Below are positions 1 to 7,700 of a stretch of 64,000 nt of DNA, piece after piece; within the stretch, counting starts at the first letter, position 1, and every line of letters starts with the position of its first letter. The notes beneath the pieces are model-generated. The model did no database searches. It was not told where the DNA came from and saw only the letters and a program-made list of their open reading frames with translations. The position numbers and the translations under genes were made by a program. Source of the stretch: Proales similis (Eukaryota > Rotifera > Eurotatoria > Ploima > Proalidae); assembly GCA_019059635.1 (NCBI GenBank), contig JAGVRJ010000007.1, positions 1,984,001 to 2,048,000 on the forward strand, given 5' to 3'.

Positions 1-617
1 ATTTGGTCGTCACCATTTGCATCTATTCGATTGCGTTCTAATATTTGGGTCCTTGGCGCCATCGCACTTTGCCTCCATCTGAATGGCTTGTCCAGGCCAA
101 TTTTAGCCTCTGCGGCCTATCCACCACTTTGAGTGTCTATTTCTGTGCGCAAGTGTCGGCGCGACGAGCAAAGGAGAGTGAATGAGTGAAGGGCTTGTGT
201 CAGGCGCTCGGTACATTTAAGGCAAAGAAGCGCGGAGAGGTTGTTGTTTCTCGTTGCTCGTACGTCACCTCGTCTATTCAAAGTCAACTCAGCTTGTCAT
301 CAAGTCACTCTGAACGAAAGAAAGTACAAGCAGAACAATGGAGCGAGAAATTGAATGAAACAAAAATTTGAACGAATCAGACACCCAAATGAATGAATGA
401 ATGAACGAGTGCCGAATTCAAGTCACTGAAGGCAGTCGCAAAACAAAACTTGTTCAATTCGAATTCTAATCTTCTCTTTGTTCTCGTCTAGAAGCCGCTT
501 CTTTTTCAACTCTGAAACAAGCCGCTGGAAGAGAAGACCGAAGGTCAATCAAAACCTAAAGAAAAGACGTTCGAGAGCCAAAAAGCCAACAAAACTAGAA
601 GCAAACAAGAAGCGAAA
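1..617 (+). other. Upstream/5' UTR region of the BNIP3-like gene
   Basis: No coding gene is supported here. A pyrimidine-rich tract ending in TAG at about 481-491 looks like a good 3' splice site, so the stretch from there to 617 may be the second 5' UTR exon of the following gene, with an intron upstream. A GAAT-type short tandem repeat lies at about 390-405. Confidence 0.4.
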
Positions 618-1631: not shown

Positions 1632-2340
1632 GGAGGCCATCCACAACAGACATGTTTAATCCAATTCTATATATACAGCAAAACACACAAAGAACCAATG
1701 TTTGACCAATTGAATGAGAACAACTCTCAATACGAACGGATCGATTGCGTTCCATATATTCCTTGACACTAATCGTAAATTTAACTTGCTTGTTTGTTTG
1801 TTTACCTATTCGGCCAATGTCTTTATACACACTGTTTGCGCTCTTTTTCCCTGCTATTTGAAAGCAACAAAAATATCATAAAAAACACTCGGCAATTATT
1901 GTCTCTTTTCTATTCTTGAGTCCGCTGTTCTCTCGCTTGCTATTTGGCCTGTGCGGCCACACAGACAACCAATGAATCTTGAATGGCAAACTTTTTCAAA
2001 TTTGAACCAGCTGAATTGCATTCATAAAACAAGACAATTTTGCTTTCTTTTTTCAAAGATTCCATTTTAATTGTAAAGTGGCGATGAACGCTCTTCTTCT
2101 CTTTTTTTTCTTTTTTTGTTCAAGAGTGAGTGAGAACAGACACGAGCGCTCGTGCATAATAGCAAACAACAACAACAACAAGGAAGCAACTATTTTATTC
2201 TCATATTATTTGTAAATACAAGAATAAACATAAAAATGTCTACTTTTTGTTTTCCCATTCGAAGACATTCGTGGGCTCATACGGGGTTGAGCTAAGAAAA
2301 AGAAATATTAGGGAATGAGAGAATCGACTTCAATTGCATG
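1632..2340. other. 3' UTR of BNIP3-like gene and AT-rich spacer
   Basis: A polyadenylation hexamer AATAAA lies at 2223-2228, preceded by other A/T-rich motifs and an (ACA) run near 2165. No further gene is visible. BNIP3-like transcripts probably end near 2245. Confidence 0.45.
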
Positions 2341-2342
2341 GT

Positions 2343-2570
2343 TTTGCATTTTTATTCGGCATTTAAACTGAGAATGTGAGCCAAGCGGCTTTGAATGTTC
2401 GACAAATGAGTTAAGACTGGCTCAATGAAGAAGTGCTCGCTGCCACTAATCGGCGTAAGGAGCGAGTAGCTCGTTCGTGCTGTGAGGATGGACAACCAAA
2501 ATCGAGTTCGCTGCATTATGCCCAAGCCTTGAGATTCTATTCCGTGTTTTTGTTACACAAACAGAAAAGC
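2343..2570 (-). pseudogene. Orphan copy of the EXD3 3' end
   Basis: Positions 2343-2410 match 4730-4797 in the same orientation with no gap and 7 differences in 68 bases. The intact copy is the very end of the EXD3 gene, including its stop codon and overlapping AATAAA. Read on the minus strand, this copy encodes HLSNIQSRLAHILSLNAE followed by a stop, against HWSNIETRFAHILNLNAE in EXD3. The same frame stays open upstream to about 2560 and shows weak resemblance to the EXD3 zinc-ribbon region, but the Cys residues are replaced by Ser and nothing else of the enzyme is present. It is best read as a decayed duplicate of the last EXD3 exon. Confidence 0.7.
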
Positions 2571-3110
2571 TAATGGTATTGCTCAATTGCAAAATAAAAG
2601 CCATTTTTGCCGGCAATCGATCTATCGAATTTCAAGCTTTCTATTTTCGCAATTTGAAATATAATCAAATTTAAGAAGTTTAAGTTGAATGAAATGTATA
2701 ATAGACACCAAGCCTAGAGTATTAATAGACTGTATATAAATAAAGTATCCAACACATCCATTCGCCAACACATCTTTACTAAGGAACTATCCAAACTTCC
2801 TGATCGAGCTTAATTCAGCTTTTGGTTGTCGAGAGTTGAAATGCATTCATGCAATATGCGTATCTAAAAGCACAGCAATGACCTTGAATATAAGGCTATT
2901 ATAAATGCAATGTGATTTCCTCACTATACAATTCAGTATTCAACAACTCAGCAGCTTCTAAGATGAGCTTTTTTCGGCTCAGGCTCATAGCCAAATCGCT
3001 TCAGGTGACTCAGAGAACATTCAACGACCAATTTATTCTTTTACATGAGATGAACAAGTTTTTGGGTGATAAATGGCAAGAGAACTAAATCCTTTCAAAA
3101 ATTTCAATAG
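2411..3110. other. AT-rich spacer upstream of the Crinkler-like gene
   Basis: Markedly AT-rich compared with the surrounding genes. It contains a TATATAAATAAAG string near 2735-2747 and a 41-codon open frame at about 2962-3087 that could be a first exon or a relic. An AG at 3109-3110 immediately precedes the reading frame of the next gene and could be a 3' splice site. No NTPase domain, the normal N-terminal partner of the downstream domain, can be found here. Confidence 0.35.
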
Positions 3111-3209
3111 TTTAATCATTATAATCAAAAAAGGGAGAATTATGAGAAAAGCGCCACAATAAACCATAAGAGATACAACTTTGAAACAAAAGAACAGTTT
3201 GCAAACTTG

Positions 3210-4490
3210 ATGCCCAACTTGATATTGGCAAACAGTTGCATGGTTGAAATCAGAGAACTTGAGAAAGGCCCAAACGAGAGGCCCAAGATAGATTTTCACA
3301 AAGATGTGCGAGCTACTATAACGAATGTGAATGACGCCTGCAAAGTCTACAACAAGTGTCGCTTTGGCAGGCCCCTCTGGGCCACAATGGCTTCGACCAG
3401 AAAAGTTCCAGGCGAATTACTCAACTTTGCGGCCGGCGAGCTGATAGGAGGCGTGTCCGGCAATGATTTTCGTCAGCTGAGAAACTGCGACAAGTTGAGC
3501 ATCATTGCGGCCAGGCTTCCGCTTCGAATCAATGCCTTTTCATCATTCTCGACTGATATGCTGGCCTCAAACATGGCGACTTGTGTCGGCATCCAGCCCG
3601 ACATGAATCATGGAAACTTGTTCTATCCGTCGGAGCCAATGCTGGCTGAAGCAGCGATCCGTCTCATGCACATCCATGACAAACATGTGGAAACAATTCT
3701 CCAAGTATTTCACAACTGCCTGATGCAGTCAATTGTGATTGACCAAGGTGACAAGAGCGAGCTCCTTGCCCAGCTCATTCTATGCATGGCGTTTGACAAG
3801 GCATGCTCCGAGTCGGGCTCTTTGCTCACAGATGGCGCCAATCATGTCTCGGTAGAGCAGTTTCTCAACAAGCTATTTTGCTCCAAGGTGGACTGGAGCT
3901 CGCCCGCCATCTCTGCGCTCAAATCTGCCAGGGTTTACTTCACTCGCTTTGTCGAACACTATCGGCCTCTCGACACTGAATGCCTCAGGGAAGCTTTGAG
4001 GCGCGGCTGTGCAATATTTAACAAATCGAACGAAAAAAAGGTCGACCTCATAATTCCGGTCGTGTTTGGCTGTGACAATCTGCAGATGATGAGTTGTATT
4101 CTCGTTCAAGTAAAGAACCAGTTAAGAAGCGTTCATGTCGACGCCGAGTCGATTTTACCTCAAGGAGCCGGTATTGAGGATATGCCCAAGTCAACTCCAT
4201 TTGCTAGCGTTCTGCTTGACCTTTGCCCGCCCTCCAAGTCTGCAGAGAGATTCTCGGGCTCTGTCTCCTCAACCGGTCCGCAGCTGTTTATCGCTTCGCA
4301 CGGTATTAGCGGCTCGCTATTGCCCGACTACGACCAAAGGCCAAACGTGACCAATATTCTGGAGAAGCTCGTCAAAAACGAGCATCTGGATCCATGGAAC
4401 GAACATTCGCTAGATAAATACCAAAGGGCCATTTTAGCCAGTATGAAGCTGGCTCCTTTCATTGACCACCAGAAGCTCGAGCTCGAGTAA
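3210..4490 (+). CDS. Crinkler (CRN)-like protein, helical region plus PD-(D/E)xK-type nuclease domain; NTPase part absent
   Basis: Intronless frame of 426 codons from the first ATG, open upstream without a stop to 3111. It resembles the C-terminal half of the Crinkler/CR-type proteins abundant in fungi and oomycetes and patchy in animals. Landmarks in order (numbered from 3207): FGRPLWA about residue 53; an L-S-I-I-A-A-R-L block at 97-104; SSFSTDMLASNMATC 112-126; YPSEPMLAEAA 140-150; a GDKSELLAQLIL helix at 181-192; then RRGCAIFNKS near 265 followed by D280-L-I-I-P-V and I-L-V-Q301-V-K303-N. The last pair matches the D...(E/Q)xK core of restriction-endonuclease-fold domains. The usual N-terminal P-loop NTPase is not visible upstream, so this is either a truncated or domain-only gene. 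An AATAAA at 4708-4713 could end its mRNA. Lack of introns and the AT-rich flanks set it apart from its neighbours. Whether it is expressed or active is unknown. Confidence 0.65.
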   Translation: MPNLILANSCMVEIRELEKGPNERPKIDFHKDVRATITNVNDACKVYNKCRFGRPLWATMASTRKVPGELLNFAAGELIGGVSGNDFRQLRNCDKLSIIAARLPLRINAFSSFSTDMLASNMATCVGIQPDMNHGNLFYPSEPMLAEAAIRLMHIHDKHVETILQVFHNCLMQSIVIDQGDKSELLAQLILCMAFDKACSESGSLLTDGANHVSVEQFLNKLFCSKVDWSSPAISALKSARVYFTRFVEHYRPLDTECLREALRRGCAIFNKSNEKKVDLIIPVVFGCDNLQMMSCILVQVKNQLRSVHVDAESILPQGAGIEDMPKSTPFASVLLDLCPPSKSAERFSGSVSSTGPQLFIASHGISGSLLPDYDQRPNVTNILEKLVKNEHLDPWNEHSLDKYQRAILASMKLAPFIDHQKLELE

Positions 4491-4707
4491 GCTTTCTTAC
4501 CTCATCTCACTCGGCTATTTATTTAGGCTTTATTAGAAATCTTTTGTCCTCGGAAAATCCACTTGCCTGTCCTGATGAGTAAATAGTAGACTCGAATAAT
4601 TAAGGAGAAGAGCAAACATAAAAGCTCATGAATATCAGCCAAACACGCAAGTGTCTTTTTTGTGTCTTGGGTTTTTCTTAAATTTACATGGCAAGTTGAA
4701 CAAGAAA

Positions 4708-4743
4708 AATAAAGATTCAGTTCACTGCTTTTGCATTTTTATT
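4708..4743. terminator. Facing polyadenylation signals of two convergent genes
   Basis: AATAAA on the plus strand at 4708-4713 follows the Crinkler-like gene. On the minus strand AATAAA at 4738-4743 overlaps the TAA stop of EXD3 (4739-4741). The two 3' ends therefore lie within about 30 bp or overlap. Confidence 0.5.
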
Positions 4744-7700
4744 CGGCATTTAAATTGAGAATGTGGGCGAAGCGGGTTTCAATGTTCGACCAGTGAGGCC
4801 CTTCCCAGTAGATTCGACCGCACCCAGAGCATGCATAGAACAAACTCACGACGCTGAGTGTGTTAACAAACAGATTGTCGAGCTGAAGCAAGACACGAGG
4901 CTCTTGTCTGAGTCGCAGGTCGGCCAAGTCGATCTTTTCCAGCAAATCGAGATCACTGCTGCCGTCGTAGTTGCCCGACATGTTTCTCTCTCGTCTCTTT
5001 CCGATTCGACTCTGACCAAGATTCCAGAGCCATTCCATTTGATCTCGCTCGAATGTGACATAGTCGCTTGCATTGCAAGACTGTTCGGTTGATTACCTGG
5101 CGCACTCGACCGGGTAGAACGGAGCGCAAAATCTTACCAGACAACGACTGAACAAATCGCTCACGTGCACTTGAACGTTGAACATGCGAAGCACAGCGGT
5201 ACACTGCTCTCGGGCGTTGCCTGCTTTCACGTGAACGCATCGGCCAGTGGGCATCTGCGATCTCAACTACAAGCCCATTGCAGCTCGATTGACATTGAAT
5301 CGAACAGAATGTGACTTACGTTGAAAAAGGCGAGTCCACAGCTTAGCAAGAAGCGATTCTCGGCTCTGGCGATCTATTTTTATTGAACAAAGGCAATCAG
5401 CAGCGCGTGTTTATTTCGGCTCGATGGGCGCTGACTTACTTTGGCCGCTTCTGAATGCTCCTGGTCGTTGTCGAGTATTTTGGCGTCAACTCCACAACGT
5501 CGAAGCTCTTTGCCCAGACCGCCGAGCATGTTGTCGCACATGACCTTCAACGACCTGGGCCGGATCGGCACCGGACTAAGAGTGAAATTCGGGTCGTTGA
5601 ATTTGGCCAGCTCTTGCCAATACTCGTCTTGCTGCTTTAGCTCCCTCTTTTCGGCCCGGTTGGCCTTGTCTCGGCTCTTGCTGGTCGCTTTCTCGCCGGC
5701 CTGTGCTGCGTTCTTCACTTTACGGCCGAGACAAGCCTCAAAGTCAAACGCAACCGCCAGCTCGCTTAGACGCGTGCGAATGAACTCGAACACTTCCAAG
5801 AGGCAGTAAGCGTCCAGAGCGGCGTACAGGATCTGCGTGCGACGCATGGGCCGCTTTTCCCAGTTTGAGACTTGCTCACTTTTGTTGAGTGGCTTGCCCA
5901 GGCACAGTCTGACCAATTCGCTCAGGCCTTTGGCTTTCACTTCTTGGTTGGCTTCTGCGTCTTCGATCGACGCCTCTCCCGAGTAGTCTACATCTTTGCT
6001 AAACAGAGGACAGTTCATTTGCATGAGCTGTTGAAACACAAACGCCAGATCGAGCGAGGTCATGCGCAGCAAGTCTGCGTAAGCCACCTGCTCGCCGCTC
6101 TGCTTGTTGAATGTTTGACAGATGATCTTGATGTCGTGGCTAAAGCCGTAGCCGAGCTTCACTATTCGCTTGTTGTGTAGGAAGCGTTCGGCAAACATTT
6201 TGTCCAGCTGATGAGCGTCCGGCTCCGATTCAAGCTTGACCATGTCGATCAGGAAAATTCGATCGGCGGTGGCGATTTGAATCAGCGAGGCCCGATGACA
6301 CTCGAGATGCTCGGAGCCGAGTATGCAAGACGGCTTCCATTCTGTGTCGACGCCAACAAACGTGTGCTCGTTCCAGTCAATTGTCGAGTTGATTGACGAC
6401 TTTCGGTTTGTTGACGAGTCAGGACAGATGTAGTCGAGAAAGGCCAGCAATTGGAGTTTAGTCTCCACAATCTCGATTCGGCTCTCGTCCAGTCTCAACC
6501 GATGGAAGCGGTCGTCTTGGACTATTTCGGACTCGACCGATTGCCACAGATCTTGGCCAAGGCCACGCTCGAGTCCATCGACAATCTGATCGTGTATCTG
6601 ATTTGAGACCATTCTCAACAGCGAGTGTCACAGTTGAACGAGGCAACCTGTCACTTACAAAATGCGGAAGGCTCGATGGCGCAATCTGGAGGTAGCGAAT
6701 CCATCGGCAGATCTCTTCAATGTCGCTGTACGTGTAGAGCGAGGAGACGAACGCCTCCAAGATTGAATCGTCCTTACTCAGACATTCGACAATCAAATCG
6801 CGCCACGGCTCGAACGCGATCGAATTCTCCACATAGCGCCTGTAGAGCAGGTACTTGAGCGTTTTGAGGTAGCGCTGACTGGTCACATTGGGACACCAGG
6901 CCGGATCTAGTTTGTATTGCTTTATCAAGCGTGAGGCCAACTTGCACAGCTGGCGACGATTCAGCTTGTCCAACTTGACGCTCTTTACTTTGTATTTGCT
7001 TCAACAAAACAGGCCCAACGAGTGCGATTGCGAACAGAAAAAATCGAACGCGGAATCTGTTTACCTCAAATAGGTCGAAATGTGCGCGTCTGGCGAGCAC
7101 ATCTTGTCCAGTTCAGCCACAAACAGCTGCTGGTGTTTAAGACTTGAGTTCAAATAGCGTTCAATTATGTTTATCTTGTCCTCGAGCAGCAGCGGTATGA
7201 GAGTCTGCGTGGTGGTGTTGGTGATTGGTTGTTGGTCGACAGGCGTGGATTTGATTGAAAAGAGAGAAAAAAGAAATTGAATTGACCCGTTTGAGAAATC
7301 CTTGATCGAATTGTGCACAAGCGACGAGAAATTACCTCAACGCAGTCGAAATGATCGTGAAGCAGAAGTGAGCTGATAACGACGGCTCGCTCTTTAAAAT
7401 CGAACGTAGCCAGCCGGTTTTTGACATGCGGCAGGAGAAGCGCACCTGTCTCGGCTAGCGAGTAGGCGTTTATGATTTGATCGAGCAAAATTAGATTGTG
7501 TCTGGTCGCTGTGTAAAACGCAGCTATTTTTATCTCATCAGAAGGGCGGCCCGCACCACCTGACACGCTTGTCTTATTGACGCGCCATTTATCGAACGAT
7601 TTGGCCACAATGCAAGCGATTGAATTGAATTTGTTCGATGGGTAGTCGCGCGCGTTCTCGATCAATACCAAATTCAGCCAGTAGGGGCTGGCGCTGTCTG

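Follow-up and report, generated by a model that had tools for sequence, protein, structure and literature searches.

A Crinkler-type gene without its NTPase domain in the rotifer Proales similis, a paralog of a resident NTPase-nuclease family

The stretch analysed here, called the window throughout, is 64,000 nucleotides of contig 7 of the rotifer Proales similis (JAGVRJ010000007.1, positions 1,984,001 to 2,048,000, assembly GCA_019059635.1). It holds a Crinkler-type (CR) gene with nuclease motifs and no P-loop nucleoside triphosphatase (NTPase) domain. We think it probable that this gene, the window copy, is an internally deleted paralog of a resident P. similis family of CR NTPase-nucleases, likely a recent duplicate whose constraint has relaxed. 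Crinkler-type nucleases are familiar mainly as fungal and oomycete weapons. The window gene itself is of ordinary origin, a truncated duplicate, and the point of interest is the animal family to which it belongs.

The window copy is a frame of 427 codons without interruption (3207-4490, forward strand). A first-pass annotation, made from the sequence alone, had placed the gene at 2960..4490. The frame that carries its motifs is real, but the start was set too far out: the open frame reaches back to 3111, directly past a stop codon, which leaves bases 2960-3110 outside it, and the earliest start codons in frame are TTG at 3207 and ATG at 3210. All six motifs ascribed to the C-terminal half of Crinkler-type proteins were located in this single frame and in the order given (Table 1), among them the restriction-endonuclease-type (REase-type) D...(Q/E)xK motif (D280, Q301, K303), and the setting is, as had been proposed, an animal genome. 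The frame is not a product of chance, because about 1.2 kb of the gene recurs at three other sites in the P. similis genome with 89% DNA identity. The protein is 83% identical to a full-length contig-5 copy over 403 aligned residues. A Pfam scan of the window protein returned no match, and a motif check found no P-loop in it.

To place the gene in its family, 32,716,893 bases in 15 contigs were searched. A protein search with a contig-5 paralog gave at least 22 rows, and the family count is a lower bound. The full-length, NTPase-bearing copies that the first-pass annotation had suggested looking for do exist: at least 13 intact NTPase-nuclease genes lie on five contigs (four each on contigs 1 and 4, three on contig 5, one each on contigs 6 and 13), besides broken copies. 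The remaining rows belong to the window gene (two), broken contig-10 copies (three), a fragment at 2.137 Mb on contig 7 (two), a contig-8 fragment (one) and a weak contig-4 fragment (one). The 13 intact genes have 706-782 codons of open frame, and every one carries Walker A and Walker B as well as YP(S/P)EP, QGxKGEL, a D(L/I/M)xxP stretch and (Q/E)VKN. The predicted order of the full-length proteins is a header, a P-loop (AAA+/STAND-like) NTPase, a helical, winged-helix-like region and a PD-(D/E)XK nuclease; the structure model of a relative (P0001) has an AAA+-like NTPase. The NTPase that precedes the nuclease in these proteins is deleted in the window copy.

Two features that the first-pass annotation had noted for the window gene are shared with its relatives. 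It has no intron, as first described, but neither do the 13 full-length paralogs, each a single open frame. Its flanks are AT-rich (33.9% GC in 2500-3206 and 35.1% in 4491-4738), and only 0.16% of 700-bp windows reach GC as low. The gene itself, however, has 49.7% GC, equal to the window mean, and the upstream flanks of the 14 other measured copies range from 31.6 to 44.7%.

The closest paralogs of the window copy are three tandem copies on contig 5 (a, b and c), with 88-89% DNA identity. Identity is 88.4-89.2% in 3299-4599, 72.7-73.8% in 2508-3299, and 83-86% in the outermost 100 bp. At 3299/3300 the contig-5 copies hold an additional in-frame stretch that encodes the P-loop and Walker B, confirming that the NTPase reported as missing was deleted. 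The homologous segment includes upstream flank and a piece of another gene, a mut-7-like gene of contig 5. The window copy arose by DNA-level duplication and internal deletion, in either order. The earlier proposal of a horizontal acquisition at this locus is not borne out, the segment having been copied as DNA, upstream flank included, from a contig-5 paralog.

Over 396 codons compared with contig 5, the window copy has a pairwise ratio of non-synonymous to synonymous substitution rates (dN/dS, omega) of 0.34-0.35 (NG86) or 0.40-0.41 (YN00). It is distinctly possible, though short of probable, that the window copy has become a pseudogene and is at an early stage of decay, drifting neutrally with its frame kept by luck or by a recent deletion, while the full-length paralogs alone work. 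The NTPase is lost, and the window copy does not share the header start of the longest contig-5 frames; the longer header start is, however, also missing in contig-5 copy b. Across 15 rows the window copy breaks one of 22 invariant sites, K78, which the 14 other rows share. It also breaks 4 of 62 sites common to six other P. similis rows, where the same count gives 1 of 59 for contig-5a and 5-11 of 58-69 for the other five rows, whose branches are longer.

The intact frame argues against simple neutral drift. In neutral simulations at 0.12 substitutions per site a stop-free frame survived in 0.8-0.9% of runs, and in 0 of 5000 when indels were included; at 0.05 substitutions per site this argument weakens, with 12.6-13.8% of frames stop-free and 1.9% with indels. 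Relative to contig 5 the upstream flank has 71-73% identity and 6-9 indels, and the coding part 89% and none. Branch models disagree on the constraint of the window-copy branch. In a ten-row two-class model omega is 0.60 on the window copy and 0.13 on the background, with omega = 1 not rejected (p 0.41) and equality with the background rejected (p 2.4e-5). A three-class model with contig 5 separate gives 0.27 for the window copy, 0.80 for contig 5 and 0.11 for the background, and here omega = 1 is rejected for the window copy (p 0.002). A three-sequence branch model was uninformative, its outgroup branch lying at the bound, and the ten-row model was used instead. Of the description "truncated relic still under selection", the truncation stands, with an intact frame, but the selection depends on the model chosen.

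It is also possible, and we hold this tentatively, that the window copy is a working derivative without the NTPase, retained as a regulator or as an ungated nuclease. The frame is intact, the deletion is in frame, the candidate active-site residues are retained, and dN/dS falls inside the range of 15 young full-length paralog pairs (0.14-0.61). Such constraint may, however, predate the deletion, and near-invariant sites have been substituted. Given the branch models and these broken sites, constraint on the window copy appears relaxed and decay is possible. The substitution patterns most likely reflect relaxed constraint, in a gene that is either decaying or an ungated derivative.

It is quite unlikely that an active mobile element carries the CR genes as its cargo or uses them as its enzyme, with the window copy as one insertion. 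Copies are both dispersed and tandem, the segment is flanked on either side by a 72-bp direct repeat, and a link between CR proteins and transposons is proposed in the title of Zhang et al. 2016 and in the review PMC5289972. However, there is no positive sign of a transposon: inverted terminal repeats were found neither at the window copy nor in four paralog loci that were checked. The arrays are segmental duplications, either tandem or inverted, and include neighbouring genes, and the copied segment bears a piece of another host gene. The contig-5 trio (2.14-2.17 Mb, L008-L010) is a tandem duplication of about 7.6 kb that takes in parts of a DNA polymerase beta-like gene and the mut-7-like gene. 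A candidate target duplication spanning some 198 bp (2213-2410) was dropped, the 72-bp part alone being real. On the right side, clear contig-5 homology stops at 4599, and 126 bp are therefore left without explanation.

Recent capture from a fungus at the window locus is very improbable. Searches for relatives scored the 8000 candidate proteins sharing most words with the query. Among the matches listed, a single-sequence search gave at least three (P0001, Paraglomus and Geosiphon), the best named ones being Glomeromycotina, and a profile search gave at least 26, six of them from Brachionus and others from Geosiphon, Basidiobolus, Allomyces, Psilocybe, Lactifluus and Phanerochaete. In a 35-row tree, however, of which ten rows have long branches, the ten P. 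similis rows cluster in a single clade (100/99), and this clade joins Brachionus and further sequences (99/97); in a 20-row tree the wider group has 92/97. Two groupings picked after the first tree, P. similis with Paraglomus/Geosiphon and P. similis with Basidiobolus, are rejected by approximately unbiased (AU) tests (p 0.0048 and p 0.0087, respectively). By these trees the P. similis family groups with Brachionus and not with the fungi tested. Descent within monogononts would be the simplest reading, and an old transfer into rotifers is possible. No relative was encoded in any of 36 pattern-fitting stretches of viral contigs, and a search of viral structures, with a threshold of E 0.001, got no closer than E 0.012, for an Ectocarpus virus protein. 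Least credible of all is a retrocopy of a spliced transcript, for although a single clean internal block is missing, the ends of the missing stretch are not GT-AG and the upstream flank was copied too, which fits only if transcription starts far upstream.

The family can be compared with the nearest known systems. A review (PMC5289972) reporting Zhang et al. 2016 describes CR proteins as a class with NTPase, helix-turn-helix (HTH) and REase parts. The full-length P. similis copies share the NTPase-then-nuclease order. The family profile finds two Psilocybe cubensis proteins that have the Crinkler header PF20147 above cut-off, P0023 (E 5.2e-41) and P0026 (E 3.2e-34), which shows sequence homology of the family to Crinkler-header proteins. 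Unlike those proteins, the window protein and the six full-length P. similis copies scanned have no PF20147, their host is a free-living animal, and the window copy has no NTPase. Genome-wide, no PF20147 match passed the cut-off; the best, at 22.6 bits, was read as a RAD23-like ubiquitin domain. In lacking this header the scanned copies differ from Crinkler effectors in the strict sense, and no hydrophobic signal was obvious by eye at the N-termini. Proteins of Brachionus plicatilis and B. calyciflorus (P0007, P0009-P0012, P0017) belong to the same family, have NTPase and nuclease motifs and are the nearest named relatives in the tree, but are only about 26-32% identical to the first sequence of the query, and none is annotated as CR. 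Among the titles and abstract openings listed by literature searches, none reported Crinklers in rotifers. Bacterial Avs3, an antiviral STAND NTPase, and McrBC-type restriction systems resemble the family in their predicted NTPase and nuclease parts. Their structural scores are modest and no PDB sequence match supports them (a PDB search with a full-length copy gave one irrelevant match), so that they serve to compare mechanism and not to assign membership.

By analogy with these systems, the family likely encodes an NTP-gated PD-(D/E)XK DNase. In the full-length proteins, nucleotide binding or hydrolysis would gate or position a DNase inside the cell, as in CR proteins and bacterial STAND-nuclease systems, with mobile DNA or viruses as the probable opponents. 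A role within the animal's own cells is suggested because the family is expanded and mostly intact in a free-living animal and has relatives in Brachionus. A contig-5-type copy would have been duplicated into a mut-7-like gene, at its end, and the NTPase core lost in frame before or after. The window copy keeps the candidate E-D-QxK residues without the presumed gate, and its product, if made, would either act as a nuclease that is ungated or mis-regulated, or partner the full-length proteins. At the QxK position other P. similis copies have QVK or EVK, and a contig-10 copy DSK. We raise, as an unlikely extension, that monogononts defend themselves against invading or mobile DNA with an animal version of an NTP-gated, STAND-like nuclease system, drawn from the Crinkler toolkit and tandemly expanded, with the window gene as a shortened, gate-free tuner. 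P. similis is a culturable animal in which the role of CR proteins could be tested, and the window copy, a natural NTPase deletion, could reveal what the NTPase does.

Table 1. Features of the window copy and its surroundings (window coordinates; roles of residues are predicted; outside relatives are those outside P. similis)
Feature	Position	Residues	Strand	Remark
NTPase-less CR-type (Crinkler-family) gene	3207..4490		+	427 codons from TTG 3207
Retained tail of N-terminal header region	3207..3299		+	20/29 residues identical to contig-5 copy; DNA match to 3299
Helical region, possibly NTPase lid and winged helix	3288..3692	28-162	+	has FGRPLW, YPSEP
Predicted PD-(D/E)XK (REase-type) nuclease domain	3738..4490	from 178	+	
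FGRPLW	3363-3380	53-58	+	motif in frame
YPSEPMLAEAA		140-150	+	motif in frame
SELLAQLIL		184-192	+	motif in frame
RRGCAI		265-270	+	motif in frame
DLIIPV		280-285	+	motif in frame
ILVQVKN	4098-4118	298-304	+	motif in frame
Candidate active-site residue	3759..3761	E185	+	E in 23/28 outside relatives
Candidate active-site residue	4044..4046	D280	+	D in 22/28 outside relatives
Putative QxK motif	4107..4115	Q301-V302-K303	+	outside relatives: Q 18/28, K 23/28
Substitution	3438..3440	K78E	+	Glu here; outside relatives Lys 25/28, Arg 2/28
Substitution	3756..3758	G184S	+	Ser here; Gly in 24/28 outside relatives
Contig-5-homologous segment	2407..4599		+	includes ~800 bp upstream of deletion junction, mostly non-coding
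Deletion junction	3299..3300		+	contig-5 copies a and c hold 825 bp extra, copy b 837 bp, all in frame
72-bp direct repeat, left copy (89%)	2339..2410		.	right end = start of contig-5 homology
72-bp direct repeat, right copy	4726..4797		.	3' end of mut-7-like gene
Piece matching 5' end of contig-5 mut-7-like gene	2407..2513		-	copied along with segment
mut-7/EXD3-like 3'-5' exonuclease gene, several exons	4739..6618		-	convergent neighbour, 5' extent provisional; PF01612 E 1e-18; homologs named mut-7

In the mut-7-like neighbour of the window copy, Mut7-C scored under the cut-off, and the window and contig-5 mut-7-like genes are 28.5% identical in their aligned part. The other CR copies, too, have neighbours of the ordinary animal kind: on contig 5 these are DNA polymerase beta-like and cupin genes, on contig 1 an LsmAD gene, on contig 6 a cytoplasmic dynein and on contig 10 a zinc-finger gene. 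Synteny with Brachionus through a dynein gene was ruled out, the contig-6 neighbour being cytoplasmic dynein 1 and the dynein piece of P0007 DNAH12/7-like. In P0007 itself, a B. plicatilis record entered as a dynein heavy chain, the gene model joins a CR protein to a DNAH12/7-like end and a TatD-like piece.

Four CR genes form a tandem array with a 4279-bp step on contig 4 (307-325 kb, L020/L021). A gene of 176-188 aa without a Pfam match repeats along with them; from its motif we presume it to be gluconokinase-like. Contig 10 has a palindromic duplication at about 690-695 kb: its two arms (L019, 967-2678 and 4070-5777), each about 1.7 kb long and in opposite orientation, are 99.8% identical and hold broken CR copies. 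A decayed CR fragment lies on contig 7 itself (2137404-2137960, L027), about 150 kb from the window copy. Upstream of the window gene, at 618-1313 on the forward strand, is a BNIP3-family frame (PF06553, 36.5 bits, cut-off 26).
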